Below, in pieces: positions 2,607 to 22,690 of a DNA stretch of 39,245 nt. The stretch is from IMG/VR virus record IMGVR_UViG_3300033158_000004, positions 1 to 39,245 of that record; one strand, written 5' to 3'. The DNA comes from a virus. The position numbers and the translations under genes were made by a program. The notes beneath the pieces are model-generated. The model was not told the origin of the DNA. It saw only the letters and a program-made list of their open reading frames with translations, and made no database searches. How positions within the stretch are numbered: position 1 is the first letter of the stretch; every line of letters starts with the position of its first letter.

Positions 2607-2860
2607 CAGCCGCCCACCTCGTCGTTGACCGCCCGCTGGCGCGCGCTGAAGGCCTCGGCTTCCGCGGGCTCGATGCGCTCGCAATAGACCGCGCCGTCCT
2701 CCTGGCGCAGCCACAGCGGGCGGTGCCCTGGGTGCGCGATCACGAAGCCGCCGGCCGGATGCGCGCGCGCTTCCTCGCCCGGCCTGAGCGTCACGCGCGG
2801 CGCCTCACGTTCCACGTGGAACTCGTGGCCGCAGTGCGGGCAGAGAACGAGCTCAGACAT
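2606..2860 (-). CDS. Small zinc-ribbon-like protein, 84 aa
   Basis: Starts at the ATG 2858-2860 (MSELVLCPHCGHEF); longer readings upstream run through the HNH gene. The N-terminal CPHC pair with one further Cys near residue 60 suggests a half zinc ribbon. The start overlaps the end of the HNH gene by 8 bp, and the stop overlaps the next start as ATGA. Codons for the EFHVER segment carry a perfect parS-type palindrome (separate entry), so part of this coding sequence may be held at the DNA level. Function unknown. Confidence 0.72.
   Translation of the reverse strand: MSELVLCPHCGHEFHVEREAPRVTLRPGEEARAHPAGGFVIAHPGHRPLWLRQEDGAVYCERIEPAEAEAFSARQRAVNDEVGG
2809..2822. promoter_or_regulatory. parS-type palindrome (ParB-binding site), copy 1
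   Basis: Perfect 14-bp palindrome GTTCCACGTGGAAC, identical to the core of the chromosomal parS site bound by ParB/Spo0J in many bacteria (the Pseudomonas-type version of the consensus). It sits inside the 84-codon gene in the register TTC CAC GTG GAA. A second perfect copy is at 22272-22285. No parA or parB gene is in the window, so any ParB would be the host's. Confidence 0.7.
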
Positions 2861-3506
2861 GGGGCTCTCGATATAGCCTCGCGCCGGTCCCCCAAGTTGG
2901 CGTCTTGCGATGGCAGGCCACGCACAACGTGCGCCCGTTGGATAGATCAAGCGCCAGGTCAGGACGGGCCGCGTAGGGGATGATGTGATCCGCATTGATA
3001 CGCCCTCCGCGCTCGCCGCATCTCTGACACGTGTAGTCGTCGCGGGCGAACACAGCGCGCCGCCACGTCAAGTATTCCACGCGCCCCATCAGCGCGTGGC
3101 GTGCCGTACCGTAAGTCCCTCCCCGCCAATTGTGGTTACGCTCACCGCGCATATCGTGTCGCGCCTTGCCGAGACGGGCGCGGGAGATCCCGGCTGCGCG
3201 ACTCGGGTGCTTCACGCCCTCGATCAGCGCGTGACGCACCGCGCTGGAATTTCGGTACTTCCACTTGCCCGCGCAGGAGTTGCCGCAGAATCGCAGTCCG
3301 CTGTGGCGCAGCGGCTTGGAGCAAAGCGTGCACCGCGTGCACTCGTAGCACTTGATGCGCCTGCCGCTGCGAGATGCGAATTCCTTGCCACACGAGCGGC
3401 ACCGCAAGGCGAACGACCGGGACTCGCCAGCTCTGAAGCGGCCGTCAGGCACGATGCCGAGCCTCCGCAGCGCGGTGTCTGCCAGCCGCAGCCATTTCCG
3501 CGACAC
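2853..3506 (-). CDS. HNH endonuclease with N-terminal zinc fingers
   Basis: 217 residues from a GTG start. The N-terminal half has repeated Cys pairs (CRSC 36-39, CYEC/CTRC/C 53-62, C74/C78) that look like zinc-binding DNA-recognition modules, followed by a basic linker. The C-terminal HNH domain has C160-x2-C163, D173-H174 (the catalytic DH), N190, and C195-x2-C198-H199. It lies in the packaging operon, where HNH proteins may assist terminase cleavage in HK97-type phages; a homing role is the alternative. It overlaps the upstream 64-codon gene by 62 bp, so the true start may be further in. Confidence 0.85.
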   Translation of the reverse strand: MSRKWLRLADTALRRLGIVPDGRFRAGESRSFALRCRSCGKEFASRSGRRIKCYECTRCTLCSKPLRHSGLRFCGNSCAGKWKYRNSSAVRHALIEGVKHPSRAAGISRARLGKARHDMRGERNHNWRGGTYGTARHALMGRVEYLTWRRAVFARDDYTCQRCGERGGRINADHIIPYAARPDLALDLSNGRTLCVACHRKTPTWGTGARLYREPHV

Positions 3507-3639
3507 GCTTAGCCCCGTATTTTCTGCGGGCGATGAATGCGCTCAAGGCCCCCGGATTGTGCACGCCCTTGCGCCCCGCGAGCTTGTGCTCCATGGCGGC
3601 GAATCGTCCGCCCCCGCCTGGTTCCATCGACTTTGCCAC
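3445..3639 (-). CDS. Small basic phage protein, 64 aa
   Basis: GTG start at 3637-3639. The sequence pattern MEHKLAGRKGVHNPGALSAFIARRKYG is a layout I associate with small uncharacterised phage proteins near DNA-metabolism genes (a KLAGRxGVxNPxALAAxIGRxKYG-like motif). Strongly basic. It begins 3 bp after the 170-codon gene ends and runs 62 bp into the HNH gene. Function unknown. Confidence 0.65.
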   Translation of the reverse strand: MAKSMEPGGGGRFAAMEHKLAGRKGVHNPGALSAFIARRKYGAKRVAEMAAAGRHRAAEARHRA

Positions 3640-3642
3640 GTG

Positions 3643-4155
3643 CTACTCCTCTCGCGGGAGACCCATCTCGCGCTCGTGCACGGGACGGTTCCCGGTGGTT
3701 CCGGCGCGCGTCGCGCCCGTCAGTTTCGCTTTCCGCCAGTTCTGCCCGACCTGCGCCGAGTATCGGTCGAGACAGGCGACCGCGAGCCGGCGCAGTACCG
3801 TCGTGGAGACCGGGAGTCCCGTCTGCCGGTCGGTCTCCGCGAAGGCGATGGTTTCGAGCCCGTCGCGGAGCGTCTCGACCGCCTTCGAGAGCTTGAGGTT
3901 GCCCTCCTGGGCATGCCGCTGGGCCTCCTGTGCGGCCTCCAGGGGGTCCAAGGGCTCGACGGGCGGTCTCGGCTCCTTTGGCGCGGGATCGCCGCGTGGC
4001 GCGCTCCGTGCGTTGGCAGAGCCGCGTTTCGCCGCCGCCCTCATGGCGAGGGCGCGTTGAGCCCGACCCCGGCGGCGTTTGACACGGGGCGCGGTGGTCT
4101 CGGCCGCGGATGCCGTGGTGGGCTCCGCCGAGGTCGGGTTTTCGGTCTCAGTCAT
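3643..4155 (-). CDS. Hypothetical protein with disordered, charged N-terminus, 170 aa
   Basis: The first 75 or so residues are low-complexity (Thr/Ala, then Arg-rich RVKRRRGRAQRA, then Pro-rich). The remainder is predicted helical, with an EAAQEAQRHAQEGNLKLSKAV segment that could be a short coiled coil. ATG at 4153-4155, 8 bp overlap with the upstream gene. No family recognised. The basic tail-like N-terminus suggests nucleic-acid contact, but nothing more specific is supported. Confidence 0.65.
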   Translation of the reverse strand: MTETENPTSAEPTTASAAETTAPRVKRRRGRAQRALAMRAAAKRGSANARSAPRGDPAPKEPRPPVEPLDPLEAAQEAQRHAQEGNLKLSKAVETLRDGLETIAFAETDRQTGLPVSTTVLRRLAVACLDRYSAQVGQNWRKAKLTGATRAGTTGNRPVHEREMGLPREE

Positions 4156-4453
4156 AGACGTCTCCGGTGGCGAGCTGCGCCTTCGTCACCCCGCGCGGCC
4201 CCTTGTTGCGGCGGTTCGCGAGGCGCCGGGTGCGGTCGTAGCGCGCCTCCTTCGTGCCCGGGCGCTCGTCCCCGAGCTCGCGCATGAGCGCGTTCGCGAG
4301 CAGCGTCGTGAGATCCGCGAGGCGAGTGCGGTCAATGCGGGAGAGGAGATCGGTGTCTTCGCCAAAGCGCATCGACCAGCGCACGCGCAGATGATCGAGA
4401 CAGCGCTCAAGGTGCGCAACCACCTCCTGGCGCACCGCCTCGACGTTCTTCAC
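4148..4453 (-). CDS. Hypothetical protein, 101 aa
   Basis: GTG start at 4451-4453 overlapping the preceding stop as GTGA. The N-terminal 60 residues read as amphipathic helices (VEAVRQEVVAHLERCLDHL...), with a basic C-terminal RTRRLANRRNKGPRG segment. It belongs to the closely overlapped minus-strand chain between the DUF1064 gene and the terminase genes. No family recognised. Confidence 0.65.
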   Translation of the reverse strand: MKNVEAVRQEVVAHLERCLDHLRVRWSMRFGEDTDLLSRIDRTRLADLTTLLANALMRELGDERPGTKEARYDRTRRLANRRNKGPRGVTKAQLATGDVYD

Positions 4454-4638
4454 GTCTTCACCTCCTCGACCTTCGGCCCCTTCATCGGGACCGTGCCCGT
4501 GCTCAGCCGATCATAGCGCACGAGGCGCGCGGGCCGTCCAGTGAAGTCATCGACCAGGTAGTAGAACCCGTCCCCGATCTGCCGGATCACGCTCACGCGG
4601 CTGTGCTTGCCATCGCTACGGCGCATCTGGGCGATCAC
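4450..4638 (-). CDS. Hypothetical protein, 62 aa
   Basis: GTG start at 4636-4638, overlapping the upstream stop as GTGA. A compact sequence with alternating hydrophobic residues (VSVIRQIGDGFYYLVDDFTGRPARLVRYDRL) suggests a small beta-barrel-like fold. No family recognised. Both ends overlap neighbouring genes by 4 bp, which supports it being real. Confidence 0.65.
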   Translation of the reverse strand: MIAQMRRSDGKHSRVSVIRQIGDGFYYLVDDFTGRPARLVRYDRLSTGTVPMKGPKVEEVKT

Positions 4639-4856
4639 TGGGGCGTTCCTTGTGGCTCAGCCTGGTAGCGCGCGCACCAGCCGCCACGGTCAACGGGCGG
4701 GTGCATCCCGACGACGCGCATCTCGCCTGGGCGGTTGCCCGGCAGCACGCAGGGGCGCGGCGGCTCGGCACGGCACGAGAGGATCGGCTTCTCGAACCCA
4801 TCGACGGTGAGGATCGCCGAGTACATGCAATCGCCGCAGGTGCCTGCCGGCCTCAC
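4635..4856 (-). CDS. Hypothetical Cys-containing protein, 73 aa
   Basis: GTG start at 4854-4856 with a GTGA overlap. Five cysteines (CGDC near residues 7-10, then single Cys near 28, 36 and 61) suggest a metal-binding or compact fold. A CxxC-C-C-WC-type layout of this length recurs in small phage proteins of unknown role. Function not assignable. Confidence 0.62.
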   Translation of the reverse strand: MRPAGTCGDCMYSAILTVDGFEKPILSCRAEPPRPCVLPGNRPGEMRVVGMHPPVDRGGWCARYQAEPQGTPQ

Positions 4857-5314
4857 GAGAACCTCGCCACGTCCGCGCGCTTCAGAATGCGGACCCGCAC
4901 GCCGTAGAGCTGCTCGACCATCGCGAGCTTAACGCGCGAGGCCTCGGTGAGAAAGCCCTTCGTCTCCTCCGCTGTGACCCCAAGGTCGTTCCATCGCGCA
5001 GGCGTGTCCCACACGACCAGGAAATCACAGCGGTAGGTCGCGCCAGGCGCCAGCACGAACGGCACCTGGCGCAGGAAGTACTTCACCTCGCCCGAGGCTC
5101 TCAGGAGCTTCAGCTCGCAGTAGCGATCCGCTTCGAGGCGCGAGTCGAATCGAAAGCCGTCGACGACCGTCGCGCGGTTGCGGTACTTGGTGCGGCGCAA
5201 ACCGAAGTCGATGCCTGCGGAGCCGATCGCCGAGCGGACGACGGTAGCGTGCGGCAGACGTTCACGCACGCCCCGGACCTTGGCGAGCCAGGCCCTTCTC
5301 TCAGAGATCTTCAA
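4853..5314 (-). CDS. DUF1064 family putative PD-(D/E)XK nuclease
   Basis: 153 residues with the DUF1064 pattern: TKYRN...VDGFRFDSRLEADRY near 43-65, then YRCDF (Asp 97) and an E-T-K motif at 117-119. The conserved Glu61/Asp97/ExK arrangement is that of the PD-(D/E)XK nuclease fold; phage members are thought to be small endonucleases, possibly Holliday-junction-resolvase-like. TTG start at 5312-5314 overlapping the upstream stop. It lies in the minus-strand operon downstream of the winged-helix protein, fitting a role in replication or packaging DNA processing. Biochemical activity is inferred from the family. Confidence 0.82.
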   Translation of the reverse strand: MKISERRAWLAKVRGVRERLPHATVVRSAIGSAGIDFGLRRTKYRNRATVVDGFRFDSRLEADRYCELKLLRASGEVKYFLRQVPFVLAPGATYRCDFLVVWDTPARWNDLGVTAEETKGFLTEASRVKLAMVEQLYGVRVRILKRADVARFS

Positions 5315-5598
5315 TGACTCCTATCCTTGGGCCTGCGACGCAAGCCGAATACCCTGCGAAGCGTTTTTTCGCTGATTTCGTATTCCGCAGCGATGTATAT
5401 CAGTTTCTTGCCTAGGACCAAATCGAAGAGCAGACGCGTCAGCCTGTCAGGTCCCAATTCCCCGAGGATTATCAATGCTGGCGGGCGGCCTGGCCCTCTG
5501 CGGTAATTACCTGCGATCGCGCAGTAGATGGTCACAATCCGCGCGACCGTGGCCACGACGTACCTGCGCGTTGCCGGGTCGAAGGAAGGAGTTGACAT
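5311..5598 (-). CDS. Small helix-turn-helix-like protein, about 95 aa
   Basis: The C-terminal part has a helix-turn-helix-like stretch (IYIAAEYEISEKTLRRVFGL) ending in Arg-rich RRPKDRSH, suggesting DNA binding. Two starts are possible: ATG at 5596-5598, whose bases overlap the ATG of the plus-strand HNH gene (shared CATG), or a TTG at 5608-5610 adding four residues inside the HNH gene. Neither has a strong ribosome site. The stop overlaps the DUF1064 start. On its own strand it is separated from the next upstream gene by about 300 bp occupied by the HNH gene, so the HNH insertion may have displaced its original leader. Confidence 0.6.
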   Translation of the reverse strand: MSTPSFDPATRRYVVATVARIVTIYCAIAGNYRRGPGRPPALIILGELGPDRLTRLLFDLVLGKKLIYIAAEYEISEKTLRRVFGLRRRPKDRSH

Positions 5599-5923
5599 GG
5601 GATTTTTCAATTACCGCTCACGCGAATGGGAGCGGTTCCAGCGGCAGCAGATTGAGCGCGCCGACTTTCGTTGTCAGTCGCCGGGTTGCGGTACTCGCCG
5701 GCACCTGCACGCGCACCACATGGTGCCGATCTGGCGCGCTCCCCACCTCGCTTACGAGCCGAGGAACATTATGGTGCTGTGCCCGGTGCACCACGCGCGC
5801 GTTCACGGCTGGGCGTTCGTCCCTCGTCACTGGTTCACCGGTGACGAGCCAGCGAACGAGGACCAGTTCGAGTTCGACTTCTCAGACGAGCGAGAGAGAC
5901 CCGAGCGTCAGACACGGAAGTAG
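5597..5923 (+). CDS. HNH endonuclease, oppositely oriented insertion
   Basis: 108 residues from ATG 5597-5599, with a good ribosome site (GGAAGGAG) 5 bases upstream. HNH motif: C26/C31, catalytic H40-H41, N57, then C62-x2-H65-H66 as in small HNH nucleases. It is the only plus-strand gene inside a minus-strand operon and fills the gap between two genes otherwise linked by overlaps, which is how free-standing homing endonucleases insert. It ends in an acidic tail (DQFEFDFSDERERPE) and overlaps the end of the small gene at 5908-6063 by 16 bp. Confidence 0.88.
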   Translation: MGFFNYRSREWERFQRQQIERADFRCQSPGCGTRRHLHAHHMVPIWRAPHLAYEPRNIMVLCPVHHARVHGWAFVPRHWFTGDEPANEDQFEFDFSDERERPERQTRK

Positions 5924-6063
5924 CCCCGCATGCGGCAGTGCCAGCGCAGGGCCGCGACCTGCAGCGCGTACTGCTTGCCGAGCCGCAGGCCCGCGATGCG
6001 GCCCACCCGAAGCTCTGCGGCGAGCCAGAGCCCGTGCTTGCCCCAAAGGTCCTGCGTGGTCAC
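5908..6063 (-). CDS. Small basic protein, 51 aa (short gene)
   Basis: GTG start at 6061-6063 overlaps the stop of the winged-helix gene (GTGA). It reads VTTQDLWGKHGLWLAAELRV, then GRIAGLRLGKQYALQVAALR, ending WHCRMRGYFRV. The perfect stop/start overlap and an amphipathic, Trp- and Arg-rich composition support a real, translationally coupled product. The 3' end runs 16 bp into the convergent HNH gene. No family recognised. Confidence 0.6.
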   Translation of the reverse strand: MTTQDLWGKHGLWLAAELRVGRIAGLRLGKQYALQVAALRWHCRMRGYFRV

Positions 6064-6674
6064 TGCTTCGCCTTCTGGCGCATGGCATGCGCCTCGTCTG
6101 GTGTCATCCCGAAACGAGCCTTGAATTCCGCGTCGGCGTTCGGCTGACGCCCCTTTGGAGGCTCCTCGCGCTCACGTAGTGCCCGAGCGAGCGAGCCCTC
6201 CGGAGGCGTGTATCCGAGGTCCTCGCGCGGCCCCGGCTCTGCGGGTGTCGGCCGCGCGCCTCTGAGGTTTTCTTCGGATCTCTTCGGATTGGGTGTCAAA
6301 GCTTGAGACCCCGTGGCGGCCTCCGTGACACCCCGTGAGACCTCGGGTGATACCCCGTCAGACGTCCGGGGTGTCACCGTGAGACCCCGTGGGGTTATGT
6401 CGTATACGACTGGGCGCCTGTCCGCCCGCTTGATGTAGGCGGCGGCGATCTCCTGGTTGCCGCGCTTGATGACGCCAGCTTGCTCGAAGCGCTGCAGATG
6501 GCGCCTTACGGTAGCCTCAGACAGGCCAGTGTCCTGCATGAGCTGGCGTAGCGAGGGGAATGCGTTCGCGCCGTCCTCGCCCGCGTAGTTCGCTAGGCAC
6601 ATCAAAACCAGCCTCTCCGTGGGCTCGGTGATCTCCTGCTGCTTGATCGCCCAAGCCATCGCTTGAATGCTCAT
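6060..6674 (-). CDS. Winged-helix DNA-binding protein, possible replication initiator
   Basis: 204 residues. The N-terminal 90 residues form a helix-turn-helix_36-type winged helix (AFPSLRQLMQDTGLSEATVRRHLQRFEQAGVI followed by a basic wing). This arrangement is seen in phage O-like replication proteins and in plasmid-type initiators. The middle is Pro/Arg-rich and probably disordered; the end reads FKARFGMTPDEAHAMRQKAKQ. ATG at 6672-6674 preceded by a GGGGGA ribosome-site-like run. It follows the Cro-like gene in the leftward early operon. Initiator versus regulator cannot be settled from sequence; no helicase partner is visible. Confidence 0.72.
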   Translation of the reverse strand: MSIQAMAWAIKQQEITEPTERLVLMCLANYAGEDGANAFPSLRQLMQDTGLSEATVRRHLQRFEQAGVIKRGNQEIAAAYIKRADRRPVVYDITPRGLTVTPRTSDGVSPEVSRGVTEAATGSQALTPNPKRSEENLRGARPTPAEPGPREDLGYTPPEGSLARALREREEPPKGRQPNADAEFKARFGMTPDEAHAMRQKAKQ

Positions 6675-6821
6675 CTATCCCCCGCTCGTCAATACATACA
6701 ACGCCGTAGGCGAAAACCGACAGCGCTTGCCTACTTGCGACATTCTGGGAGGCCCCGTTACAATGCGGCCTCGGCTTCCTCCCCCGAAGCCATCCGGCGG
6801 CCTGGCGGCAGGCTAGCGCAC
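6675..6821. other. Non-coding spacer between Cro-like and winged-helix genes
   Basis: 147 bp with no convincing gene. Contains an inverted pair GTAGGC (about 6716-6721) and GCCTAC (about 6728-6733), and a second pair GAGGCC/GGCCTC on the minus strand around 6750-6772 with a loop of about 12 bases. It is less GC-rich near 6690-6720. It could hold a terminator, an operator or an origin; none can be assigned. Confidence 0.35.
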
Positions 6822-7034
6822 CTAGACCGTCAGGCCGCCCGGATTCCCGACACGCCGGTAGATCACCCGACGCTCGAGCCCGAGCTTGGCAAGGAGCGCC
6901 TCGTCGGGGTTATCCATCACGCCGTTCATGAGCCTCCAGACGTAGGCATGGTCGGTCCCGAGCGCCCTCGCGGCTGGCCGCACCCCACCGTGCTTGCGCA
7001 CGAACCTTTTCACCGTCACCTGTAGTGTGCTCAT
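6822..7034 (-). CDS. Cro/CI-type helix-turn-helix regulator, 70 aa
   Basis: ATG at 7032-7034 is the last plausible start; the frame is open far upstream but into the promoter region. It reads MSTLQVTVKRFVRKHGGVRP, then AARALGTDHAYVWRLMNG, a compact lambda-repressor-like helix-turn-helix at residues 5-40 with the typical AAxALG turn. It faces the rightward early operon across a 121-bp divergent spacer, the classic position of a Cro-type switch regulator. No second (CI-size) repressor and no integrase are visible, so lysogeny is not supported by this sequence. Confidence 0.75.
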   Translation of the reverse strand: MSTLQVTVKRFVRKHGGVRPAARALGTDHAYVWRLMNGVMDNPDEALLAKLGLERRVIYRRVGNPGGLTV

Positions 7035-7038
7035 AATC

Positions 7039-7114
7039 GCGGTGTTTACCACAGCAGCGGCTCTGAGTCCAGCCTGTGCCCGCCGCGGCACCATGTTGAC
7101 AGCACGGACACCGC
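7039..7114. promoter_or_regulatory. Candidate operator pair in the divergent early region
   Basis: GCGGTGT at 7039-7045 and its inverse ACACCGC at 7108-7114 flank the divergent spacer. One copy lies beside the Cro-like start, the other lies between the -35 and -10 boxes of the rightward promoter. The spacing (about 62 bp) would suit looping or two separate half-sites. Only 7 bp each, so chance cannot be excluded. Confidence 0.25.
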
Positions 7115-7125
7115 TACGGTATAAG
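7096..7125 (+). promoter_or_regulatory. Rightward early sigma70-type promoter
   Basis: Perfect -35 box TTGACA at 7096-7101, an 18-bp spacer, and a -10 box TATAAG at 7120-7125. Transcription would begin near 7132, 24 bases before the first early ATG at 7156. This is the strongest host-type promoter seen in the window and is placed for the whole plus-strand block. Confidence 0.75.
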
Positions 7126-7155
7126 GCGCCATCGATCTCGCTAAGGACGCCCGAC

Positions 7156-7278
7156 ATGCTCGCCTTAATCGCCTGGTTCCATTTCGTGCTGCCGCCCGAG
7201 AACCCGCACTTCCCCGTCGCGCACGTCGCGCACGCCTGCACGAACTCGACGTGCCTGCACGGGCGGGTGCGCCCGTGA
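7156..7278 (+). CDS. First early gene, 40-aa peptide
   Basis: ATG at 7156-7158 with AAGGA at 7143-7147, directly downstream of the strong early promoter. 40 residues: a hydrophobic N-terminus (MLALIAWFHFVLPP), then AHVAHACTNSTCLHGRV with two Cys and several His that could bind metal. The stop overlaps the next GTG start (GTGA). No family recognised. First-transcribed phage genes of this size often act on the host, but nothing here shows a target. Confidence 0.6.
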   Translation: MLALIAWFHFVLPPENPHFPVAHVAHACTNSTCLHGRVRP

Positions 7279-7469
7279 CGCTCTTCGAGATGGCGGCCGC
7301 GCTCACCGCTGCCGATGCGGCGCTCATCCTCGAAGGTGTCGAGCGCGAGCAGCGCGACCGGATCCTGAACCGCGTGAGCAAGAGTCTCGCGCTCACGGCG
7401 CTCCATTCGCAGCCCGTGGGCGAAGCGCCGCGCTCCCACTACCCCGCGACGCCGGGGAAGCCGTTTTGA
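7275..7469 (+). CDS. Early hypothetical protein, 64 aa
   Basis: GTG start at 7275-7277 in a GTGA overlap with the previous gene. Reads VTLFEMAAALTAADAALILE, then a charged helix with EREQRDRILNRVSKSLALTAL and a short Pro-rich tail. Predominantly helical. No family recognised. The upstream in-frame extension to 7251 lacks support. Confidence 0.62.
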   Translation: MTLFEMAAALTAADAALILEGVEREQRDRILNRVSKSLALTALHSQPVGEAPRSHYPATPGKPF

Positions 7470-7651
7470 TCCCGCGTCCGCCGCCCACCTGGCCCACCGA
7501 GCAGATCGTGCTCGAGACCGTGGACGGGCGCGTCCTCATCCGGCGGGTGACGGCGCCGGGCTTGCGCTTCACGGACCCGCGACCCTTTACCGGCTGGGAG
7601 CGCGCACGCCGCACGCAGCTCCCGCGTGCCACCCCTGCGGCAGGAGACTGA
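7466..7651 (+). CDS. Early hypothetical protein, 61 aa
   Basis: TTG start at 7466-7468 overlapping the previous stop (TTGA). Reads MIPRPPPTWPTEQIVLETVD, then GRVLIRRVTAPGLRFTDPRP. The IVLETVDGRVLIRRV hairpin suggests a small beta fold; rich in Pro and Arg. It is followed, after 6 bp, by the recombinase-type ATPase gene. Function unknown. Confidence 0.58.
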   Translation: MIPRPPPTWPTEQIVLETVDGRVLIRRVTAPGLRFTDPRPFTGWERARRTQLPRATPAAGD

Positions 7652-7657
7652 GACGCC

Positions 7658-8578
7658 ATGCTGCGTATTACGAAATCGACCGACCCGATCGAGGTGAAGA
7701 ACCTCACGCTCTGCCTCTACGCCGTCCCGGGCGTCGGCAAGACGACGCTCGCCTTCACGGCCGAGAAGCCGCTCCTCCTCGACTTTGACCGCGGGAGCTA
7801 TCGCGCGGGCAACCGCGGCGACACCGTCGTGGTCGAGCGCTGGGAGGACGTTGAGGCGATCACCGCGAAGGACCTGGAGCCCTACAAGACGCTCGTCGTC
7901 GATACGGCGGGACGTGCGCTGGATGCGCTCACCGCCGCGATCATCGCCCGCAACCCCAAGATGGGGAACGGCGGGGCGCTCACGCTCCAGGGGTTCGGGG
8001 AGCTCAAGGCGCGCTTCACCGCCTGGACCAAGCTCGTGCGCTCCTTCGGGCTCGACGTCGTGCTGATCGCGCACTCGGACGAACAGCGTAAGGGTGACGA
8101 GGTCATCGAGCGGCTCGACATGCAGGGAGGCTCGAAGAACGAGGTCTACAAGTCGGCCGATGCCATGGGGCGACTCTACTTGGCGGGCGGCAAGCGCACG
8201 CTCAACTTCTCGCCCACTGACACGGCCTTCGGCAAGAACCCCGCGCAGCTCGATCCGCTGCTCGTCCCGCGCTTCGCCGATGCGCCGCGCTTCCTCGCGG
8301 ACGTCGTCGACAAGATCAAGGCGGCGCTCAATGCGCACTCCGCGCAGCAGACCGAGGTTGCGGGTGCGCTCGCCGACTGGCAGGCGCTCTTCGAGGAGGC
8401 CTCCACCGAGGAGGAGCTGAACGGCATGATCGCGCAGACCGACCGGGCCGAGGAGTCGGTGCGCGACAACGTGAAGCGGCTCCTGCGCGCGCGGGCGAAG
8501 CACCTCGGCTATGCTTACGACATCCCGTCGGCGAGCTTCCAGAAGACCGACCGCGTGCAGAAGAGGGCCTCCGCGTGA
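7658..8578 (+). CDS. RecA-core ATPase of the Sak4/AAA_24 type (probable single-strand annealing recombinase)
   Basis: 306 residues. Walker A A22-VPGVGKTT, Walker B TLVVD ending at D82, and further RecA-core features (VVLIAHSDEQRKG, motif-3-like). The layout and length match phage Sak4-like proteins, which bind single-stranded DNA and promote annealing. The C-terminal 80 residues (WQALFEEASTEEELNGMIAQ and following) form a separate helical domain. ATG at 7658 with AGGAG 11 bp upstream. The stop overlaps the exonuclease start, so the two probably work as a recombination pair. Family-level naming only; replication-clamp roles are less likely. Confidence 0.82.
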   Translation: MLRITKSTDPIEVKNLTLCLYAVPGVGKTTLAFTAEKPLLLDFDRGSYRAGNRGDTVVVERWEDVEAITAKDLEPYKTLVVDTAGRALDALTAAIIARNPKMGNGGALTLQGFGELKARFTAWTKLVRSFGLDVVLIAHSDEQRKGDEVIERLDMQGGSKNEVYKSADAMGRLYLAGGKRTLNFSPTDTAFGKNPAQLDPLLVPRFADAPRFLADVVDKIKAALNAHSAQQTEVAGALADWQALFEEASTEEELNGMIAQTDRAEESVRDNVKRLLRARAKHLGYAYDIPSASFQKTDRVQKRASA

Positions 8579-9231
8579 TCCGCCTGAGTGTCACGGACCT
8601 CGAGACGTTCCGCTACTGGCGCGAGCGCGAGGACTCGACCTTGGATGAGCTCATCGCGCAGCTCGTGGGGATCGCAGAGCCCACGCCTCAGATGCAGGCC
8701 TCGCGCGCCTTCCACAAGGTGTTCGAGACGCTCGACATCGAGGCGGTGGCGGCGCTCGAGCAGGTGAGCCGCGACGGCTGGACGTTCGTCTTCGAGCTCG
8801 ATGGCGAACTCGCGATGCCGAAGATCCGCGAACTCAAGGCCGAGGGGATCTGGCACACGCCGAGCGGGCCGGTGACGCTCGTCGGTAAGGTCGACGGTCT
8901 CGCCGGGCTCACGGTGCACGACTACAAGCTCTCCGAGAGATTCGAGGCGGAGCGGTATCTCGACTCCTGGCAATGGCGCGCCTACCTCTCGATGTTCCAC
9001 GCGACGCGCTTTGTCTATGAGGTCTTCGAGTGCTGGTACGACCGCTACGAGCCAGGGCTCGTGCGCATCCGCGCGCTTCACCCGCTCGCCTTCGACCGCT
9101 ATCCGCTCATGGAGCGCGACCTTGCGGAAGCCGTCTGCGAGCTCGCAGAGGTGGTCGCGCGGCACTGCCCGCAGAAGATCGTCGACTCGCAGATCCGCGA
9201 GGGGATGCTCGCGGCAGGGATCAGCGCATGA
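8575..9231 (+). CDS. PD-(D/E)XK exonuclease, RecB/Cas4-like
   Basis: 218 residues. Nuclease core VGKVDGL (D107), HDYK (D116-x-K118, the D/ExK motif), and a QxxxY motif (Q133...Y137) typical of RecB/AddB/Cas4-type nucleases. No Cys cluster is visible, so no Fe-S cluster is predicted. GTG start at 8575 overlaps the stop of the Sak4-like gene (GTGA), consistent with a two-component recombination system: 5'-end resection plus annealing. A role in replication by recombination is plausible, since no DNA polymerase is encoded. Confidence 0.82.
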   Translation: MIRLSVTDLETFRYWREREDSTLDELIAQLVGIAEPTPQMQASRAFHKVFETLDIEAVAALEQVSRDGWTFVFELDGELAMPKIRELKAEGIWHTPSGPVTLVGKVDGLAGLTVHDYKLSERFEAERYLDSWQWRAYLSMFHATRFVYEVFECWYDRYEPGLVRIRALHPLAFDRYPLMERDLAEAVCELAEVVARHCPQKIVDSQIREGMLAAGISA

Positions 9232-9320
9232 GGACGGTGCTCGACTTCCTCGCTGGGTTAGCCGCAATCGCCGGCATGATCGCCTTCGGCATCTATCTCG
9301 CGTACCTCTTCCACCTGTGA
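9228..9320 (+). CDS. Single-span membrane micropeptide, 30 aa
   Basis: ATG at 9228-9230 (ATGA overlap). MRTVLDFLAGLAAIAGMIAF followed by GIYLAYLFHL: essentially one transmembrane helix with a short charged N-terminus. The stop overlaps the next GTG start. The precise overlaps at both ends make this more than a chance frame. Function unknown; membrane micropeptides in early operons may modify host membrane proteins. Confidence 0.65.
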   Translation: MRTVLDFLAGLAAIAGMIAFGIYLAYLFHL

Positions 9321-9541
9321 ACACACTACCCGAGGAAGTGGTGGCGGCGGTCGATGCCGTACTCGAGGCCCAAGGCCTCGGCGTCTACGATGCGGCGCTC
9401 GTCGTCGTGCGGCTGCCGAAGGACGGCGGGCACCGGATCCTGCAGGCGCACTTCGGCAACCCGGACGTGCTGCGCGCGCTCATCGATGAGGTGCGCGCGC
9501 GATTGCCGACCGGCGTCATCTTCACGGAGAAGCCGAATTGA
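9317..9541 (+). CDS. Early hypothetical protein, 74 aa
   Basis: GTG start at 9317-9319 overlapping the previous stop. Reads VNTLPEEVVAAVDAVLEAQG, then VVVRLPKDGGHRILQAHFG and IDEVRARLPTGVIF: an alternating helix/strand pattern of a small alpha-beta fold. No family recognised. The stop overlaps the next TTG start. Confidence 0.65.
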   Translation: MNTLPEEVVAAVDAVLEAQGLGVYDAALVVVRLPKDGGHRILQAHFGNPDVLRALIDEVRARLPTGVIFTEKPN

Positions 9542-10035: not shown

Positions 10036-10079
10036 GCGAAGAGCACCACACCACTGATCCGGTGGTGCAACGTGGCTGA
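10032..10079 (+). CDS. 15-aa leader-like peptide, fragment of a paralogous start
   Basis: ATGA overlap with the previous gene, reading MSEEHHTTDPVVQRG and stop. Its first ten residues resemble the start of the gene at 11092 (MSDAHHTSNPKLLE). It overlaps the next GTG by 8 bp. It may be a leader that couples translation, or the stump left when a paralogue was replaced by the gene at 10072. Confidence 0.4.
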   Translation: MSEEHHTTDPVVQRG

Positions 10080-11702: not shown

Positions 11703-11718
11703 ACGGGGAACCACGTCG

Positions 11719-14192: not shown

Positions 14193-14214
14193 CGCGGATC
14201 TCCTGGTGGAGTGA

Positions 14215-15087: not shown

Positions 15088-15121
15088 GCGGAACTGAGCC
15101 TACAGCGCGGGCGCCGCACCC

Positions 15122-15616: not shown

Positions 15617-15626
15617 GGCGGCCGCC

Positions 15627-15806: not shown

Positions 15807-15817
15807 GGTGAGTCTCC

Positions 15818-16267
15818 TTAAGCGACGAGCTGATACTGCCACGCGCCGGGGTTCCCCGTCGCGGTGAGCGCCTGGCGCCGCGGCTCGGCTCCCGGGGGCG
15901 CGATCGCGAGGTGTATCCAGGCCGCGCACTCGAAGATGATCTGGTCATAGGGCAGGTCCGCCTGCGTGCGCAGCGTCTCGAAGGCGGTGGCGAGCGGCAC
16001 GCCGATGGGGATCAGGTCGGCGGCACGCCCCTCCATATGAGCGCTTGCGCTCGCCCCGCCTATCCGGGAATTCAGTTCCGGGCACCGGTAGCCGGAGTCC
16101 ACGTGCAGCGGCACGCCGAGCACCGTGCGCGCGGGCTCAAGGAGCGTTGCGCAGAGGCGCCCGAGCTCCTCGAGCGCGACCGCCGGCGGCGTATTGTCGA
16201 TGCCCAAGCGCGATGCCGTCTGCGAGAAGACGAGCTCCTCGAGCGTGAAGTTGGGAGATAACTGCAT
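15818..16267 (-). CDS. M15A-type peptidase endolysin
   Basis: 149 residues from ATG 16265-16267 (AAGGA about 10 bp upstream; a GTG at 16283-16285 would add six residues). LSPNFTLEELVFSQTASRLG is the typical N-terminus of Peptidase_M15_3 proteins; SGYRCPELN 58-66, the zinc motif SAHMEGRAADL (His77, Asp84) and WIHLAI (His119) complete the metal-binding set, with Glu113 a likely catalytic acid. It should cleave peptide cross-links in peptidoglycan at lysis. No signal peptide, so it needs a holin. It sits between the decayed remnant at 16296 and the membrane proteins. Confidence 0.88.
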   Translation of the reverse strand: MQLSPNFTLEELVFSQTASRLGIDNTPPAVALEELGRLCATLLEPARTVLGVPLHVDSGYRCPELNSRIGGASASAHMEGRAADLIPIGVPLATAFETLRTQADLPYDQIIFECAAWIHLAIAPPGAEPRRQALTATGNPGAWQYQLVA

Positions 16268-16295
16268 CACTCGCTCGTCCTTCACTCCCGGTCAC

Positions 16296-16502
16296 TCACT
16301 TCGCCTCCAGCGCCGCGACCCGCGCGAGGAGGGAGGTGATCTGGAGGTACTGTTCCTGCACCGCCTTGATGAGCGGCGCGCTGCAAACTTCTTAACCGCT
16401 ACGGGTCCGGCGCCCTGGGCGGCCCGCAGCGTCGCAGGCCCGAGCACCCCGTCTGGCGTCACCCCGAGCGCCTGCTGCAGGATGATGACGGCGCGGGAGC
16501 AC
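16296..16502 (-). pseudogene. Frameshifted remnant: peptidoglycan-binding-like segment plus fibre-type C-terminal helix
   Basis: No start codon, but two adjoining frames have clear protein character. The first reads GECSRAVIILQQALGVTPDG, then VLGPATLRAAQ, resembling the PG_binding_3 domain of GH108-type (TtsA-like) endolysins. The second reads APLIKAVQEQYLQITSLLAR, then VAALEAK and stop at 16296, like the C-terminal helix of chaperone-ended phage fibres. Removing one CG dinucleotide from the GC-alternating run near 16374-16380 joins them in one frame. The first frame also enters the 3' end of the tailspike gene. Decay, a sequencing slip or programmed shifting are all possible. Confidence 0.5.
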
Positions 16503-18476
16503 TCACCGCAAGAGGTGCCAGTCGGTCGAATTGCTGTTCGCGGCCGAGCAGTTGATGGTGAAGCCTCCCGTTCCCTTCGCCGTCACCCAGCAGTAGCCCG
16601 CAGCGTTGCCGCCCAGCGCGACGAGGTAGCTCGCATCCGGCTCGGCCGTCGCGAAGGAGACCGCTACCGAGGTCGCTGCGGCGAAGGTCGCCGTTCCGCG
16701 CAGGTTGTTCGCCGGCGTCCCGGTCCCCGAGATGCCCGCGACGTCAAAGGGTCGCAGTCCCGGCGCGAGCCCCGATGCCGCTGGGCTGATGCCGCCCACG
16801 AGGTTCCCGGAACTGTTGCGCGCCTCCCAAAGGTTGCCCGTTTGCGATGGCGCCATGTCGACGCGCATCGGGACATCGGTCGCGACGTTCGCGCCGAAGC
16901 GCGCCAATCCGTGCCGCTGTACGGTCTGGTTGTTCCCGCCGTCCCAGGTCCCGAAATAACGGTTGCGGAAGTCGCCCGTGTTATCGGTCACAAGCCCGGT
17001 GCTGAGGCCGGCGTTGGTGCCGAACCAGCACTGGCCCGCGGCGTTGGCGTCGTACAGGATATCGGTCGTGTTGCCTTCAAACCGCACGCCGACCCAGGTG
17101 GCGGGACCTACTGCCGCGTAGCAGTGCACACCCACGCCGCAGCTCTCGAGGTCGATATGTTCGTAGACCGAGAGCTGCCCGACGCCCGCAGTCACGCCGT
17201 CGCCGTGCTGGATGCCGACGCAGGTAGTGTCGGTGCCGACATCGCTGACGGCGTTGCAGTTGGTGAAATGGTTCTGCGTGGGCTGCGTGCTGCCCGAGCT
17301 CTTTTGCTGAAATCCGACGTGCAGGTGCGCACATTCGACATCGGTCACGTGATTGAAGAAGGACCCGAGAACCCCACTCGCGGCGTCGATGACGACACCC
17401 TGCGTGGTGCGCCCGGCGCTGATGGTCTCGCCCTCGAAGTAGCAGCGCGACACCTCGCCCCCGACCGTGTTGTAAAGCAAGCAGATGATGCCGAGGGTTC
17501 CGGTGAGCTGCACCGTCAGGTCCGACAACGCCGTGCCGAAGGCGGTCGAGGTTGAGCTATTGCCGAGTTGGAAGAGCACCGGGGACCCGGAGGTCGGCGC
17601 CCAGGTGATATAGGTCGCACGCTTGCCGCAGCCGCGCACCGCGACGCCGGGAGGGATGACGACGCCGCCCGTTGCGGGAAGCGGGTACGAGCCGGGCGGG
17701 AGCTGCACGGTCCCGCCGTTGCTCCCCGGAACCTGAGCGACAGCGGTGATCGCGTTCTGCAATGCCGTGAGGTTCTGCGCCGCAGTGTTGCCGGTCGCTC
17801 CGAAGCCGTAGCGACGCGCATCCGCGATCGGCAGGCCTATATCGCTGAAGTTCGTCGGGGTGATGCTGGTCGCGATTTCCCCCGGGGTGAGTGGGAAGAG
17901 GGTCGCGGCCGCGAGGAGTGCGTTGAAGACGGCTTGCGTAAGCGCGGTGCTCGGCACGACGCCGATCTGCAGGTTGCCGTTCGCGTCGAAGTACGGGACG
18001 CCGCCGCCGGCCCCGGAGAGCGAGCGGGCGCGCGCGGACGGGAGCGTCACGAGCGGCGAGACATCGCCGTCGGGCGCCACGAAGCTGCGGCTCACCTGGT
18101 CCTGGAGACGCAGCACCATCTGCGTCAAGCGATCGAGGTTCGCCTGGACCGCGGCCGAGGGGAACGCCTGCCCCTGCACATATTGGCTCGCCTGCGTCTC
18201 GACGGGCGCGAGGATCACCTGCAGCGTGTAGCCCGCAGCATAGGCGGCCGCCGCGAGCGTCGTGAGCGTCCACTGGGTCGGGGAGAGCGAGCCTGAGGTC
18301 GCCATGGAGTAGTCAGAGTTCAGGACGAGCGTCGTCTGCGCACCGCCCGAACTCAGCGGAGCGGTGAGGATCACCTCGAAGTCGCTCGACTGATACGCCT
18401 GGATCGCGACGTTGAAGGTCTTGGTCGTGCCATCGCACGAGAGGAGGACGCGGTTGGTCGGGCTCTGAATCGTCAT
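16503..18476 (-). CDS. Tailspike with beta-helix (pectate-lyase-like) domain
   Basis: 657 residues. The N-terminal 110 or so residues (PTNRVLLSCDGTTKTFNVAI, then VILAPVETQASQYVQGQAFP) resemble the T7-type fibre domain that docks to the tail. Residues about 215-300 contain RRYGFGATGNTAAQNLTALQ, then NGGTVQLPPGSYPL and VVIPPGVAVRGCG, the start of a pectate-lyase-superfamily right-handed beta-helix. Later turns end in a compact C-terminal domain closing STDWHLLR. Such proteins bind and often cleave host surface polysaccharide. ATG at 18474-18476 overlaps the ejection-protein stop. The catalytic residues cannot be identified by eye. Confidence 0.85.
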   Translation of the reverse strand: MTIQSPTNRVLLSCDGTTKTFNVAIQAYQSSDFEVILTAPLSSGGAQTTLVLNSDYSMATSGSLSPTQWTLTTLAAAAYAAGYTLQVILAPVETQASQYVQGQAFPSAAVQANLDRLTQMVLRLQDQVSRSFVAPDGDVSPLVTLPSARARSLSGAGGGVPYFDANGNLQIGVVPSTALTQAVFNALLAAATLFPLTPGEIATSITPTNFSDIGLPIADARRYGFGATGNTAAQNLTALQNAITAVAQVPGSNGGTVQLPPGSYPLPATGGVVIPPGVAVRGCGKRATYITWAPTSGSPVLFQLGNSSTSTAFGTALSDLTVQLTGTLGIICLLYNTVGGEVSRCYFEGETISAGRTTQGVVIDAASGVLGSFFNHVTDVECAHLHVGFQQKSSGSTQPTQNHFTNCNAVSDVGTDTTCVGIQHGDGVTAGVGQLSVYEHIDLESCGVGVHCYAAVGPATWVGVRFEGNTTDILYDANAAGQCWFGTNAGLSTGLVTDNTGDFRNRYFGTWDGGNNQTVQRHGLARFGANVATDVPMRVDMAPSQTGNLWEARNSSGNLVGGISPAASGLAPGLRPFDVAGISGTGTPANNLRGTATFAAATSVAVSFATAEPDASYLVALGGNAAGYCWVTAKGTGGFTINCSAANSNSTDWHLLR

Positions 18477-21400
18477 TGCGGGCCTGCCTTGATGAACTGC
18501 TTTGCCGCGATCCCGTCCTGGATCATGGGACCGAGCACGCCGGCGTTCTCCTGGAGGACCTGCTCCTTGGCCCCGTTACGGTATTCCGCCACGATGTCGC
18601 GGATCATGTCGGCCTTCGTGCCATCGGGACCGTCGGTGAGGCGCTGGTAGGTCGGCGAATAGGGATGGTTCCCGGTCACGAGCGCGTTCAGCGCGTCCTT
18701 GAGACCTAAGCCATCTGGCCCCTTGTAGCCGTTGCCGGCGAGCTCTTGGTAGCGTGAGTAGAGCTTCGGGTCGATGCGGTTCAAGTCCAGCGTGACCCCG
18801 TGGATCGCGGTGCGGGACGGCGTGCGCGGAATGTCGATCTGCTGGCGCAGGAGCTCGGCATCGATCGGCTCGTTCGCCGCTGGGCGCGTGCCAAATGGCG
18901 AGAAGAGATCGAAGCTCGCGCCCATCCCTGAGCCGTTCGGGATCGGCTCGCCCCAGGGACCACGCAGCGGCGGGAGGCCCTCCGACATCCCGGGCGTGCG
19001 CGCCCGAATCGCATCGATCATGCGATACACCTCGCGCTTGTTCGGGTCGGTCACGCGGTCTAGTGCAGCAAGCCCGGCCGGCACAAGCGAGCCGGTCTCG
19101 GAGAGGATCGCGTGCCCGGCCTTGGAGGGGTCGCCGCTCATCGCGCCGAAGAAGTTCGAGAGTCCCTGGAGGTAGCTCTTGGAAGTGATGTCGTTCGCGA
19201 TCGCAAACGTCGTGGCGAGCGCGAGATTCGCGGTGTCGGGGTCGTCCCCATTCACGCCTGCGTGGAAGTGCTGCATCGCCTCGACCGCATCGGCCGCGAG
19301 GGCCATCGCGGAGCCCGTCGGCTCAAGCCGGTTGTACTGCACCCAGCGGTTGCCGACCTTCATCGAATAGGGCTGCCAGCCCTCGTTTTCGAGCACGGCT
19401 CGGGTGCCCTTCTCCGCCGGCCCGCTCCCCGTGAGTTGGCCCGAGAAGACGGCATCCGCGGTGGCGAGCATCGTCATCGTGCCCAAGCCCATCTGCGCCA
19501 TGGCGAGAGACTGGCGGGCGCCCCCGGCCGCGATGTTGTCGCGGAAGGTCTGCATCGCAGGCGCGAGCGGCGTACGTTCGCCCGTGAAGGCGAGGATGCG
19601 CGACGGGATCTTGTAGAACGGGATGAGGACCCGCAGGAGCGGGTAGTCGTTGCGCAGCTCCCCGATTCGCTCCGCAAGCTTGCCGGGCGCGTCCGTGAAG
19701 GTCTGGTAGAGCGTCCCGTTGACCGCGTCCATCCGAAGCTGCGGCGGCGGGTTCTCCAGGAGCTCGGCGATCCGGTTGCCCATCCCGTCCTCGGCGATCC
19801 GACCCGCGAGCACGTCCTGGGTCGCCTGGCGGGTGGCGAGCGCGTTGAGTTCCATCCGGTAGCCGATCGACCGGAAGAAGTCGTGCTCGGCGGTGAGCGA
19901 GCGCCCGGGCATGCGGGCGAGCTGCCCGAGGTAATCGACCCCCTGGCCGACGAAGCCCGCGTCCGACATCCGCAGCGCCGCCGAGCTGATGGCGCCCGCG
20001 CTTTGCATGTACTCCGGGTCCCCCATGGGCTTCAGCGAATACTGCCCGGTGCGCGCCGCCTGGATGGCGTTCGAGAGCGGGTCGTTCTCTAGCGCCGGCA
20101 TCTCGAGTCCCCGACCGCCCTCCCAGGGTTCCTCCGCCCACACGCTGCGCGAGATTTTGCCCGCGAACCGCAGCGCATCCTTGAAGCCCCCGACGAGACC
20201 TGAGACCTGCGCCGCGGCCTCGCCTGCCGCCACACCGTCGGTGTTGCCCATGAGCTGGTCGATCTTGGCGGCGACCGCCCGCTCGGCGATCCGCAGCCCA
20301 ATGGTTGCGGTGTTGGAGGCAATCACCTTCACGTGGGTGAGCGGGGCGGTGAGGAGCGCGTTCGTGTAGCCCTCGAGCACGGCATCGCGCGTGCGCGCGT
20401 AGGCGCTCTTTTCCAGGAAGGTATCGATCGTCTTGTAATCCTGAGCGGCCGCGAGCTCCTGGACCTTCTGCGCGAGCGTGAGCGCGGTCTGCGCCCCGCC
20501 CTTAAGGCCCGCGTCTGCCGAGAGACTCTGCACCATCTGCTCGATGCGCAGCGGATCATCCCCGGCCGGGATGCGCCAAGCGCCGAGTGCGCGCGCGGTC
20601 TCGGTGCGCGCCGCGATCACCTCCTGCTGGATCGCCGCGTGGGTCGCGAGCATCCGCCGGAACGCGAAGAGGTTCTCGACGGTGGGGGCCTTCGTCGCAA
20701 TGTCCGAGAGCTCGATCACCTTGGATGCCGAGGAGGCCCAGAGCTGGCGCGCGGCGAGACCCTGCTCGGCATTGAGCGGCTGCCCGACGCGCCGGTCCAT
20801 CAGCGTCTTGAAGGCGTCCTCGGCCTGGGCGCCGAGCTCGGTCTGCTGGAAGGTGCGCACCCCACGGCGCGCCGTGTTGATGTCCCCCGAGAAACGGTCT
20901 GCGAGGTCCTGCATGACCTTCTGCACGTCCTCGCCAGAGTTCACGCGTGCGAAGTTGATCTGCACGCCCTCGACCTTCGGGCCCACCTCGAAGACCGGGC
21001 GCCCGTCCTTGCTCACGAGGTTGCCGGTGGTCTCGGACTCCTCGGCCGGGTTCTGCGTCACCTGGTAGCCGCGGCGCTCCAAGCCCGCGTATACGCGCTG
21101 CGCATCAGGCGACACCGAGACGTTCGAGCCGAGCTTGAGCCCGCGCTGCTCCGCCTCCTGCTGCAGGCGCTCCATCATCGCGATCGCCTCACCCTTGCCG
21201 CGCGCCTCCTCGGCGACGTCCGAGCGGTTCACCAGGAGATAGTCGCCCGACTCCTGCGCATGAATCTCCCCGTTCGGGCTCCGCGCGACGTGATCACCCA
21301 CCTCTCCGACCTCGTGCGTGACCTTGACCGGCGTCACATCGTGCGGCTCCATGCCCTCGGTCGCCTTGGCGGCCGCCGAGAGCTTGAGCGTCTGCAGGCT

Positions 21401-22690
21401 CGCCGGCTCCGGCAGCCCCCAGTCTTTGGCAATCGCGACCGTCGGGCGCGCGGCATTCTCCTCGTTCGCGGCTTCTCCCAGGGCATCGAGCCCGGCGGAA
21501 GGCCGCGGCGGCGGCGCAGAAGCGGCAGCCTCTACGGCCGCCTGAGCGGTCTCGTGCGCGGCGAACGCCCCGCGGAGCACCCGAAGCCCCGCCACGACTC
21601 CATCCGTCGCCTGCGCGAGCGCAGAGCCTTCCACGGCGTTTTTGAGGCGCCCCACAGCTTCGTTGTCGTCCGGCTTCGTTGAGAGGAAGGACGTCACCGG
21701 GTTACGCAGCGCCGGCACCTGCTGGATGAGATCCGAGAGGCGGTGCTGGCCGCCATCGAATCCCTGGAACATGGCGAGGAACCCGCGCGCCGCGGTGAGC
21801 CCACGCCCGACCCATCCGGCCGCCTGCGTCGGGACCCCGAGGAGCTTCATCTCTCGCCCCGCGAGCGCCATTGAGGTCGCGAACTGGGTGACGCCCTTCA
21901 CGAGGTTCGCGGTCACGGTCGTCTGCTCGAAGCGTCCCGGGAGCTCGGTGCCCTCGAAGGGGCGGTGGAGCTCGTCGCGCTCGGCCCCCGAGACGAGCGA
22001 GAGGAAGGGCTTCGCCGGGTCGTACCCGCTGACTCCAGGCACGTTGTAGCGCAGGACCGGCAGGTTCCCGGCCTTCTCGAGCCAGGTGCCCAAGTCCGCC
22101 GCACCATCGAGCGAGGACTGCACGGAGTCGCGCATGCCGCGCACGACCGCGCCGGGCGTCTCCAGCGCCCCGACACCGACGTCGCGGGCGAAGCGCCCCT
22201 CAAGCGCCTTCTCGCGGTTGAAGGCACTCGTGACCGCAGCATAGCCGCCCTGGGCGGCGGTCGCGGCTTCTGTTCCACGTGGAACCGCCTCCTCCTCATT
22301 CGCGGCCCCCAGGTTCTTGAGCGCGGCCGCGCGCGCGACTTCCGGGTTCGCATACTTCGCGGCGTCCACCTTCTCGGTGGCAAGGCGCTGCATCTCCGCC
22401 TGGATCATCTCCTCGGACGGAGCGGTGCTCCTGGCCGCGGCTCCTGCGGCGGCCCCAGGCTCCGGCATCGCCGTCTTGACGAACCCGGGCTCCTCCGTCG
22501 CCCCCGGTGCCGTGGGCGGCTGTGGCTGCGCCTGCGGGCCTGCCTGCGGCGATCCGCCCTGCGGAGGTGGTGCGCCTACGGGTGCCTGCACTCGCGACAG
22601 CATGGCCGCGTAGGCGGCCTCGTCCGTGGCGCTCCCGCGGTAGTCCGTGTACGCGTCAGGCAGGCGCGGGCTGTCGGTGAGGTCGGTCAC
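18473..22690 (-). CDS. Giant internal virion (DNA-ejection) protein with embedded GNAT-like domain
   Basis: 1405 residues from GTG 22688-22690 (GTGA overlap with the gene before it). Size and position match T7 gp16-type ejection proteins. The first 150 residues are Pro/Ala/Gln-rich. Residues about 455-565 look like a GNAT acetyltransferase: SGDYLLVNRSDVAEEARGKG followed by EAIAMMERL and VSVSPDAQRVYAGLERRGYQ, with the R-G-x-G pyrophosphate loop. The C-terminal half is long and helical, with GSLVPAGLAALDRVTDPNKR and PTYQRLTDGPDGTKADMIRD typical of podophage ejection proteins. No clear lytic transglycosylase motif as in T7 gp16. A parS-type site lies at 22272-22285. Confidence 0.82.
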   Translation of the reverse strand: MTDLTDSPRLPDAYTDYRGSATDEAAYAAMLSRVQAPVGAPPPQGGSPQAGPQAQPQPPTAPGATEEPGFVKTAMPEPGAAAGAAARSTAPSEEMIQAEMQRLATEKVDAAKYANPEVARAAALKNLGAANEEEAVPRGTEAATAAQGGYAAVTSAFNREKALEGRFARDVGVGALETPGAVVRGMRDSVQSSLDGAADLGTWLEKAGNLPVLRYNVPGVSGYDPAKPFLSLVSGAERDELHRPFEGTELPGRFEQTTVTANLVKGVTQFATSMALAGREMKLLGVPTQAAGWVGRGLTAARGFLAMFQGFDGGQHRLSDLIQQVPALRNPVTSFLSTKPDDNEAVGRLKNAVEGSALAQATDGVVAGLRVLRGAFAAHETAQAAVEAAASAPPPRPSAGLDALGEAANEENAARPTVAIAKDWGLPEPASLQTLKLSAAAKATEGMEPHDVTPVKVTHEVGEVGDHVARSPNGEIHAQESGDYLLVNRSDVAEEARGKGEAIAMMERLQQEAEQRGLKLGSNVSVSPDAQRVYAGLERRGYQVTQNPAEESETTGNLVSKDGRPVFEVGPKVEGVQINFARVNSGEDVQKVMQDLADRFSGDINTARRGVRTFQQTELGAQAEDAFKTLMDRRVGQPLNAEQGLAARQLWASSASKVIELSDIATKAPTVENLFAFRRMLATHAAIQQEVIAARTETARALGAWRIPAGDDPLRIEQMVQSLSADAGLKGGAQTALTLAQKVQELAAAQDYKTIDTFLEKSAYARTRDAVLEGYTNALLTAPLTHVKVIASNTATIGLRIAERAVAAKIDQLMGNTDGVAAGEAAAQVSGLVGGFKDALRFAGKISRSVWAEEPWEGGRGLEMPALENDPLSNAIQAARTGQYSLKPMGDPEYMQSAGAISSAALRMSDAGFVGQGVDYLGQLARMPGRSLTAEHDFFRSIGYRMELNALATRQATQDVLAGRIAEDGMGNRIAELLENPPPQLRMDAVNGTLYQTFTDAPGKLAERIGELRNDYPLLRVLIPFYKIPSRILAFTGERTPLAPAMQTFRDNIAAGGARQSLAMAQMGLGTMTMLATADAVFSGQLTGSGPAEKGTRAVLENEGWQPYSMKVGNRWVQYNRLEPTGSAMALAADAVEAMQHFHAGVNGDDPDTANLALATTFAIANDITSKSYLQGLSNFFGAMSGDPSKAGHAILSETGSLVPAGLAALDRVTDPNKREVYRMIDAIRARTPGMSEGLPPLRGPWGEPIPNGSGMGASFDLFSPFGTRPAANEPIDAELLRQQIDIPRTPSRTAIHGVTLDLNRIDPKLYSRYQELAGNGYKGPDGLGLKDALNALVTGNHPYSPTYQRLTDGPDGTKADMIRDIVAEYRNGAKEQVLQENAGVLGPMIQDGIAAKQFIKAGPQ
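22272..22285. promoter_or_regulatory. parS-type palindrome (ParB-binding site), copy 2
   Basis: Second perfect GTTCCACGTGGAAC, here flanked as TGTTCCACGTGGAACC, the form typical of pseudomonad chromosomal parS sites. It lies within the ejection-protein gene in the register GTT CCA CGT GGA AC, different from copy 1, and uses CGT and GGA codons that look uncommon in this GC-rich gene. It lies about 19.46 kb from copy 1, close to half the genome. Confidence 0.7.

Follow-up and report, generated by a model that had tools for sequence, protein, structure and literature searches.

Chromosomal-type parS palindromes in a podovirus lineage that encodes neither ParA nor ParB

Gene map of the window and its two parS palindromes

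The DNA analysed here, referred to below as the window, comes from IMG/VR, where it is a virus record 39,245 bases long. It is a near-complete podovirus genome, with recognised genes for internal virion proteins, head, portal, tail and terminase. The terminase large subunit (100–1626, minus strand; phrog_2) and small subunit (1888–2427, minus; phrog_51) are followed by a small ORF (2606–2860, minus; MSELVLCPHCGHEFHVER...), which is zinc-ribbon-like on a reading of its sequence, zinc-ribbon matches being weak only, and by an HNH endonuclease gene lying just upstream of it (2853–3506, minus; PHROG and Pfam matches). Genes of DNA metabolism include an O-like replication initiation protein with an HTH_36 domain (6060–6674, minus; Pfam, PHROG), which suggests that replication may start on a circular intracellular genome, as well as a Sak4-like single-stranded DNA annealing ATPase (7658–8578, plus; phrog_124, PF13479) and a DUF1064 resolvase-like protein. 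Neither an RNA polymerase nor a DNA polymerase was recognised among the window proteins scanned. The virion module contains a protein of 1425 amino acids (18473–22750, minus) related to T7-type internal virion protein D by tblastn against named phages, and the portal, or head-tail adaptor, lies near the far end (36909–38576, minus; phrog_332). A megablast search with the first 25 kb returned no neighbour among named phages.

The palindrome GTTCCACGTGGAAC is present in two exact copies, at 2809–2822 (site 1, context CACGTTCCACGTGGAACTCG) and 22272–22285 (site 2, 16-bp context TGTTCCACGTGGAACC), where the first-pass annotation had placed two perfect copies, and a scan of all 39,245 bases found no other copy with up to three mismatches. 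Both sites fit exactly the GTTNCACGTGNAAC pattern for chromosomal-type parS, as do those of the relatives described below. Base composition predicts 1.3e-4 exact copies in the window; models of 2- to 5-mers give 0.9e-4 to 2.1e-4 and a 6-mer model gives 4.6e-4, so that the annotation's view of a chance origin as very unlikely is upheld by an expectation of only about 0.0001–0.0005 copies. The probability of two accidental copies is approximately 1e-8 to 1e-7, uncorrected for the choice of motif.

Site 1 is read within the zinc-ribbon-like ORF as GAG TTC CAC GTG GAA CGT, while site 2 is read within the internal virion protein as GTT CCA CGT GGA ACA, which verifies the different codon registers reported for the two copies (TTC CAC GTG GAA versus GTT CCA CGT GGA). 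The accompanying claim that protein sequence does not explain the palindromes holds as far as the registers go but less well for site 1, where the encoded residues F-H-V-E adjoin a CPHCGHEF zinc-ribbon motif, and protein coding may have eased the presence of this copy. In the closest relative, G001, nothing matches site 1 at that place. For comparison with the origin-proximal placement of chromosomal parS, the initiator gene lies about 3.3 kb from site 1 and about 16 kb from site 2. The spacing of the two sites by nearly half the map, pointed out by the same annotation, is true of the window; it was rejected as a conserved feature because relatives carry a single site each.

Enrichment, placement and turnover of parS in the lineage

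Relatives were gathered by a search with the major head protein (29955–30872, minus; phrog_3437), which yielded 27 and then 51 viral loci, together with two contigs of a betaproteobacterial metagenome-assembled genome (MAG). The enrichment set comprised at first 29 records (558 kb) and, with 16 added, 45 records (805 kb), the window being G000. Canonical parS (GTTYCACGTGRAAC) occurs at nine sites in eight of the 45 records, twice in the window and once each in G001, G009, G017, G018, G022, G026 and G085, and site number is mostly one per lineage genome. Both natural variants of the site are represented, GTTCCAC at eight sites and GTTTCAC at one (G017, GTTTCACGTGAAAC). When 14-bp palindromes were ranked without bias across the 29 records, parS came first, with six records against two for the runner-up. 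Of 200 composition-matched control palindromes, each generated by shuffling one arm, 198 had no occurrence in the 45 records, and the other two were degenerate forms including parS itself. Copies with one mismatch number four, among them GTTACACGTGAAAC in G083, against a control mean of 0.2 and a maximum of 1. No exact parS was found among 47 more distant terminase relatives, which argues that the site is not general to podoviruses of this shape, and none was found in the named relatives MW202898, Limnohabitans phage DC33 and Desulfovibrio phage ProddE. Phage DC33 (PQ492659.1, L596) is itself recorded as Inoviridae, yet its genome is 39 kb long and matches the podovirus tail protein of the window.

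The sites are located in the internal virion protein gene in the window and G018, in the C-terminal part of the homologue of virion-module gene p2 (22687–24183, minus) in G001, and beside a p2 match in G085. In G009, G017 and G022 the site falls in a region homologous to virion-module gene p4 (24678–25118, minus), where G084 has a one-mismatch copy, and in G026 it falls in the homologue of the tail protein gene (25115–28126, minus; phrog_376); the extra site of the window is the one in the zinc-ribbon-like ORF. The module extending from internal virion protein to tail thereby holds eight of the nine sites (P = 0.0065), by a Poisson-binomial test in which the chance per record equals the module's fraction of that record and which is weakened by partial contigs. 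In G001, the module around the site is non-homologous to that of the window, and the distance from the site to the start of p2 is approximately 1.9 kb in both.

The sites occupy different genes and frames, at mostly non-orthologous positions, and where orthologous codons can be aligned in relatives the palindrome is absent. Residues encoded at the sites often depart from the family consensus: TFHVEP against TFKPDP in G001, AFHVEQ against AFEGDR-like residues in G022, SSTWNA against mostly STxYxA or STxFxA in G026, and VSRVTT against VADITD-like residues at the imperfect site of G083, with a milder departure in G009 (PFHVER against PYHVDL). The missing palindrome in relatives' codons and the off-consensus residues indicate that parS was gained repeatedly and independently, under selection that would have acted on the DNA word and not on the protein. 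Relatives with the same genes and no palindrome, which the first-pass annotation regarded as evidence against a function, literally exist; yet these relatives have the palindrome at other places in that module, suggesting turnover of the site and not a lack of function.

Lifestyle genes and the wider IMG/VR collection

No match to ParB_N (PF02195) or to ParA-type AAA_31 (PF13614) was obtained in 18 lineage records, that is, the window and 17 related records, in agreement with the reported absence of ParA and ParB. The broader proposition, that a phage which encodes no ParAB carries a real chromosomal-type parS, receives strong support from the relatives, the palindrome controls and the convergent gain.

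The window has no match to tyrosine integrase (PF00589) and carries its own O-like replication initiator, a combination that would be expected of a phage-plasmid. Among the 13 near-complete members of the lineage, integrase was found in none of the four with an exact site (G000, G001, G018 and G022), while it is present and parS absent in G020, G021, G086, B511 and MW202898. Of the remaining four, G019 lacks the site and gives a weaker integrase-like match, G023 lacks integrase and has a site that is imperfect, and G015 and B147 have neither parS nor a recognised integrase. The resulting inverse relation between parS and integrase is suggestive, with a Fisher P of 0.10, 0.07 or 0.02 depending on how G019 and G023 are classed, and absence of integrase from parS-bearing genomes is the expectation if parS serves extrachromosomal members. 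In G022 (38,143 bp), the contig ends fall within a virion gene some 2,300 codons long, which implies a complete circle in the assembly.

The window also encodes an HTH protein of about 70 amino acids (6822–7034, minus; profile search, start computed), possibly a Cro- or repressor-like regulator at a divergent early region. This HTH family is common to G000, G001, G018, G022, G023 and B147, and a profile search did not find it in integrase-bearing lineage members. Neither a CI-type repressor nor a plasmid maintenance gene was recognised in the parS-bearing members; a plasmid-like prophage is therefore not demonstrated, and a purely lytic life is possible.

Across IMG/VR, the parS 16-mer CGTTCCACGTGGAACG was found in 119 stretches against 11 for the control CGTTCCAGCTGGAACG, a ratio that is indicative, since it relies on a single control with a PvuII-site core that phages may avoid. 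The 119 stretches represent 85 distinct contexts, 104 of the stretches lie within ORFs of at least 60 amino acids, and part of them may be host DNA. Only one of 50 large parS-bearing contigs encodes a ParB_N domain. Extra sites were present in three of the 119 loci and, in another scan, in seven of 120 among the matches listed. Integrase avoidance was not seen in this wide set, in which integrases occur in 4 of 50 parS-bearing contigs and 0 of 45 control contigs; the lack of depletion here, together with the missing CI-type repressor, leaves the idea of an extrachromosomal prophage as suggestive only.

Several other parS loci stand apart from the lineage. Sixteen viral loci of an unrelated phage group (including L046, L361, L380, L397, L402, L420, L430, L442 and L445) share one parS context, which lies within a protein of roughly 720 amino acids. 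Megablast with three parS loci of other phages, this group among them, gave no named-phage neighbour. L431 (11,545 bases) contains six exact sites, at 438, 6274, 6306, 7370, 8104 and 10174, and is either a phage that carries a parS array or DNA from near a host's origin; several sites are also present in L112 and L065. For the collection as a whole, we consider it an even bet that convergent evolution has given many unrelated tailed phages a host chromosomal parS but no ParAB, in which case host ParABS would be a general, unrecognised means of handling phage DNA, whether to position it, to partition it when infected cells divide or to maintain prophages that lack an integrase.

Putative use of the host ParABS system and rival explanations

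The phage palindrome is identical over 14 bp to chromosomal parS of ParABS (Soj/Spo0J) systems in its GTTCCACGTGGAAC form, known from Pseudomonas and Myxococcus. The GTTCCAC form is that of Pseudomonas parS (PMC5450999) and is reported for M. xanthus and P. aeruginosa (PMC7022226). Natural variation of chromosomal parS at position 5/12 is mirrored in the phage lineage, whose two parS forms are separated by the T5C-A12G transition, the sole internal symmetric change tolerated by the Burkholderia chromosome-1 ParB (PMC5450999); the occurrence of both natural variants favours a reading as host-ParB loading sites. In contrast to chromosomal parS, the sites are phage-borne, lie within late genes, are usually single and have no parAB on the same replicon. 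With a possible Burkholderiales host in view, 41 genomes of that order were searched, of which seven contain GTTCCACGTGGAAC; the betaproteobacterial MAG that holds two related phages does not; both of those phages are without parS.

Centromere sites on a phage genome are also known from the partition systems of P1, N15 and actinobacteriophages, which encode their own ParA and ParB and act on a dedicated centromere, whereas the present lineage encodes neither protein and the site is the host's. Test plasmids with chromosomal parS can be positioned and stabilised by ParAB from a single site (PMC7022226); those plasmids are laboratory constructs, while the phage sites are natural, recurrent and viral. 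On injected lambda DNA, ParB loads and forms foci when a parS site is provided, as imaged with CFP-ParB (PMC13190303), although the site was engineered and the CFP-ParB supplied, and the experiment speaks to the feasibility of loading only. The literature searched, which covered few subscription journals and preprints, describes phage- and plasmid-encoded partition systems and engineered parS phages, and a natural host-type parS in a phage without ParB was not found in it.

Taken at the level of sequence, these observations suggest that the window phage and its relatives have evolved a bacterial centromere site without its reader proteins, and thus may borrow the host segregation machinery. 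Chromosomal ParB is a CTP clamp that loads at parS, spreads across kilobases of DNA and is driven by ParA (PMC12704722, PMC7022226), and loading of host ParB at the phage sites is very probable. Whether such loading would position or partition the phage genome is less firm, with the balance near equal, and the full reading of the palindromes as functional loading sites through which ParABS positions or partitions phage DNA in the cell likewise has roughly a one-in-two chance of being correct. Under this reading, sites would repeatedly come and go while one (two in the window) is kept somewhere in the late module. Once the phage DNA is inside the cell, clamps of host ParB-CTP would be loaded onto it at the site and would spread from there; the host ParA gradient, together with SMC where ParB recruits it, would then position the circular intracellular genome, and on cell division copies of the phage genome would pass to both daughters. 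A single parS lets a chromosomal par operon stabilise plasmids, and one that is oriC-proximal is enough for origin positioning (PMC7022226), so that the prevalence of one site per genome fits what partition needs. Weighing against this reading are G015 and B147, near-complete genomes with neither parS nor a recognised integrase, the lack of recognised CI-type repressor or plasmid maintenance genes, the integrase counts of the wide set, and the betaproteobacterial MAG that holds related phages and has no copy of the palindrome.

The same sequence evidence would equally accompany titration, in which many parS-bearing phage copies strip ParB from the chromosome and stall segregation and division to the benefit of the phage. 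ParB-binding parS variants slow the growth of B. cenocepacia in vivo through plasmid incompatibility (PMC5450999), and the lack of recognised CI-type lysogeny genes in parS-bearing members is compatible with such an attack. Titration should nonetheless favour several sites or arrays, while a single site is what most lineage members have, and few of the other parS loci hold extra ones (3/119; 7/120 among the matches listed); it also leaves the regional constraint and the inverse relation with integrase unexplained, and we regard it as rather unlikely. Coating or condensation of phage DNA by ParB clamps and SMC, which might protect it from nucleases or defence systems, help its packaging or adjust late transcription in cis, draws on the position of the sites in the late virion module, on the imperfect G031 copy that adjoins a conserved promoter-like motif, and on the ability of ParB spreading over kilobases to alter distant expression (PMC7022226). 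Since the sites are intragenic at scattered distances and not at promoters, with no shared regulatory neighbour seen, this explanation is unlikely.

That the palindrome is read by a phage-encoded DNA-binding protein, such as the HTH protein at 6822–7034, instead of host ParB is improbable: the HTH family is indeed present in all four parS-bearing near-complete genomes and missing from integrase members, but B147 has it too while lacking the site, enrichment of the palindrome extends to many unrelated viral contigs, and the sequence is exactly that of chromosomal parS in both natural variants. Chance or a by-product of protein coding is very improbable in view of nine exact and four one-mismatch sites against 0 and 0.2 in controls, with varied frames and residues bent off consensus, even though F-H-V-E is plausible beside the zinc-ribbon motif at site 1 and PFHVER in G009 is near the family's PYHVDL. 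Equally remote is misassembly of host chromosome or plasmid DNA into viral contigs; some matches of the wide set, such as the six-site locus, could be host DNA, but all lineage sites lie inside a conserved phage gene map, between phage genes.

If host ParB truly loads at these sites, the phages would exploit a bacterial centromere, a route of host takeover not met in the literature searched. In that case, parS would provide a sequence marker for such phages, native ParB fusions could track phage DNA in infected cells, and the borrowing of ParABS in the inheritance of carrier states or integrase-free prophages would become testable. Phage parS may also bear on between-species differences in the site preference of chromosomal ParB.

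A separate promoter-like motif was observed on the coding strand near head and packaging genes, consisting of CTTGCATGTGCCCG or TTGATTGTGCCCG and, some 17 bases further along, TAGCxT-like bases, an arrangement similar to a sigma-70 -35/-10 pair whose spacer is conserved. The motif is carried by G009, G011–G013, G016, G017, G020–G024, G026, G030, G031, B147 and B511, and the window has no exact copy. Near position 4396 of G031 (reoriented coordinates), the one-mismatch parS GTTCCACATGGAAC directly adjoins this motif.
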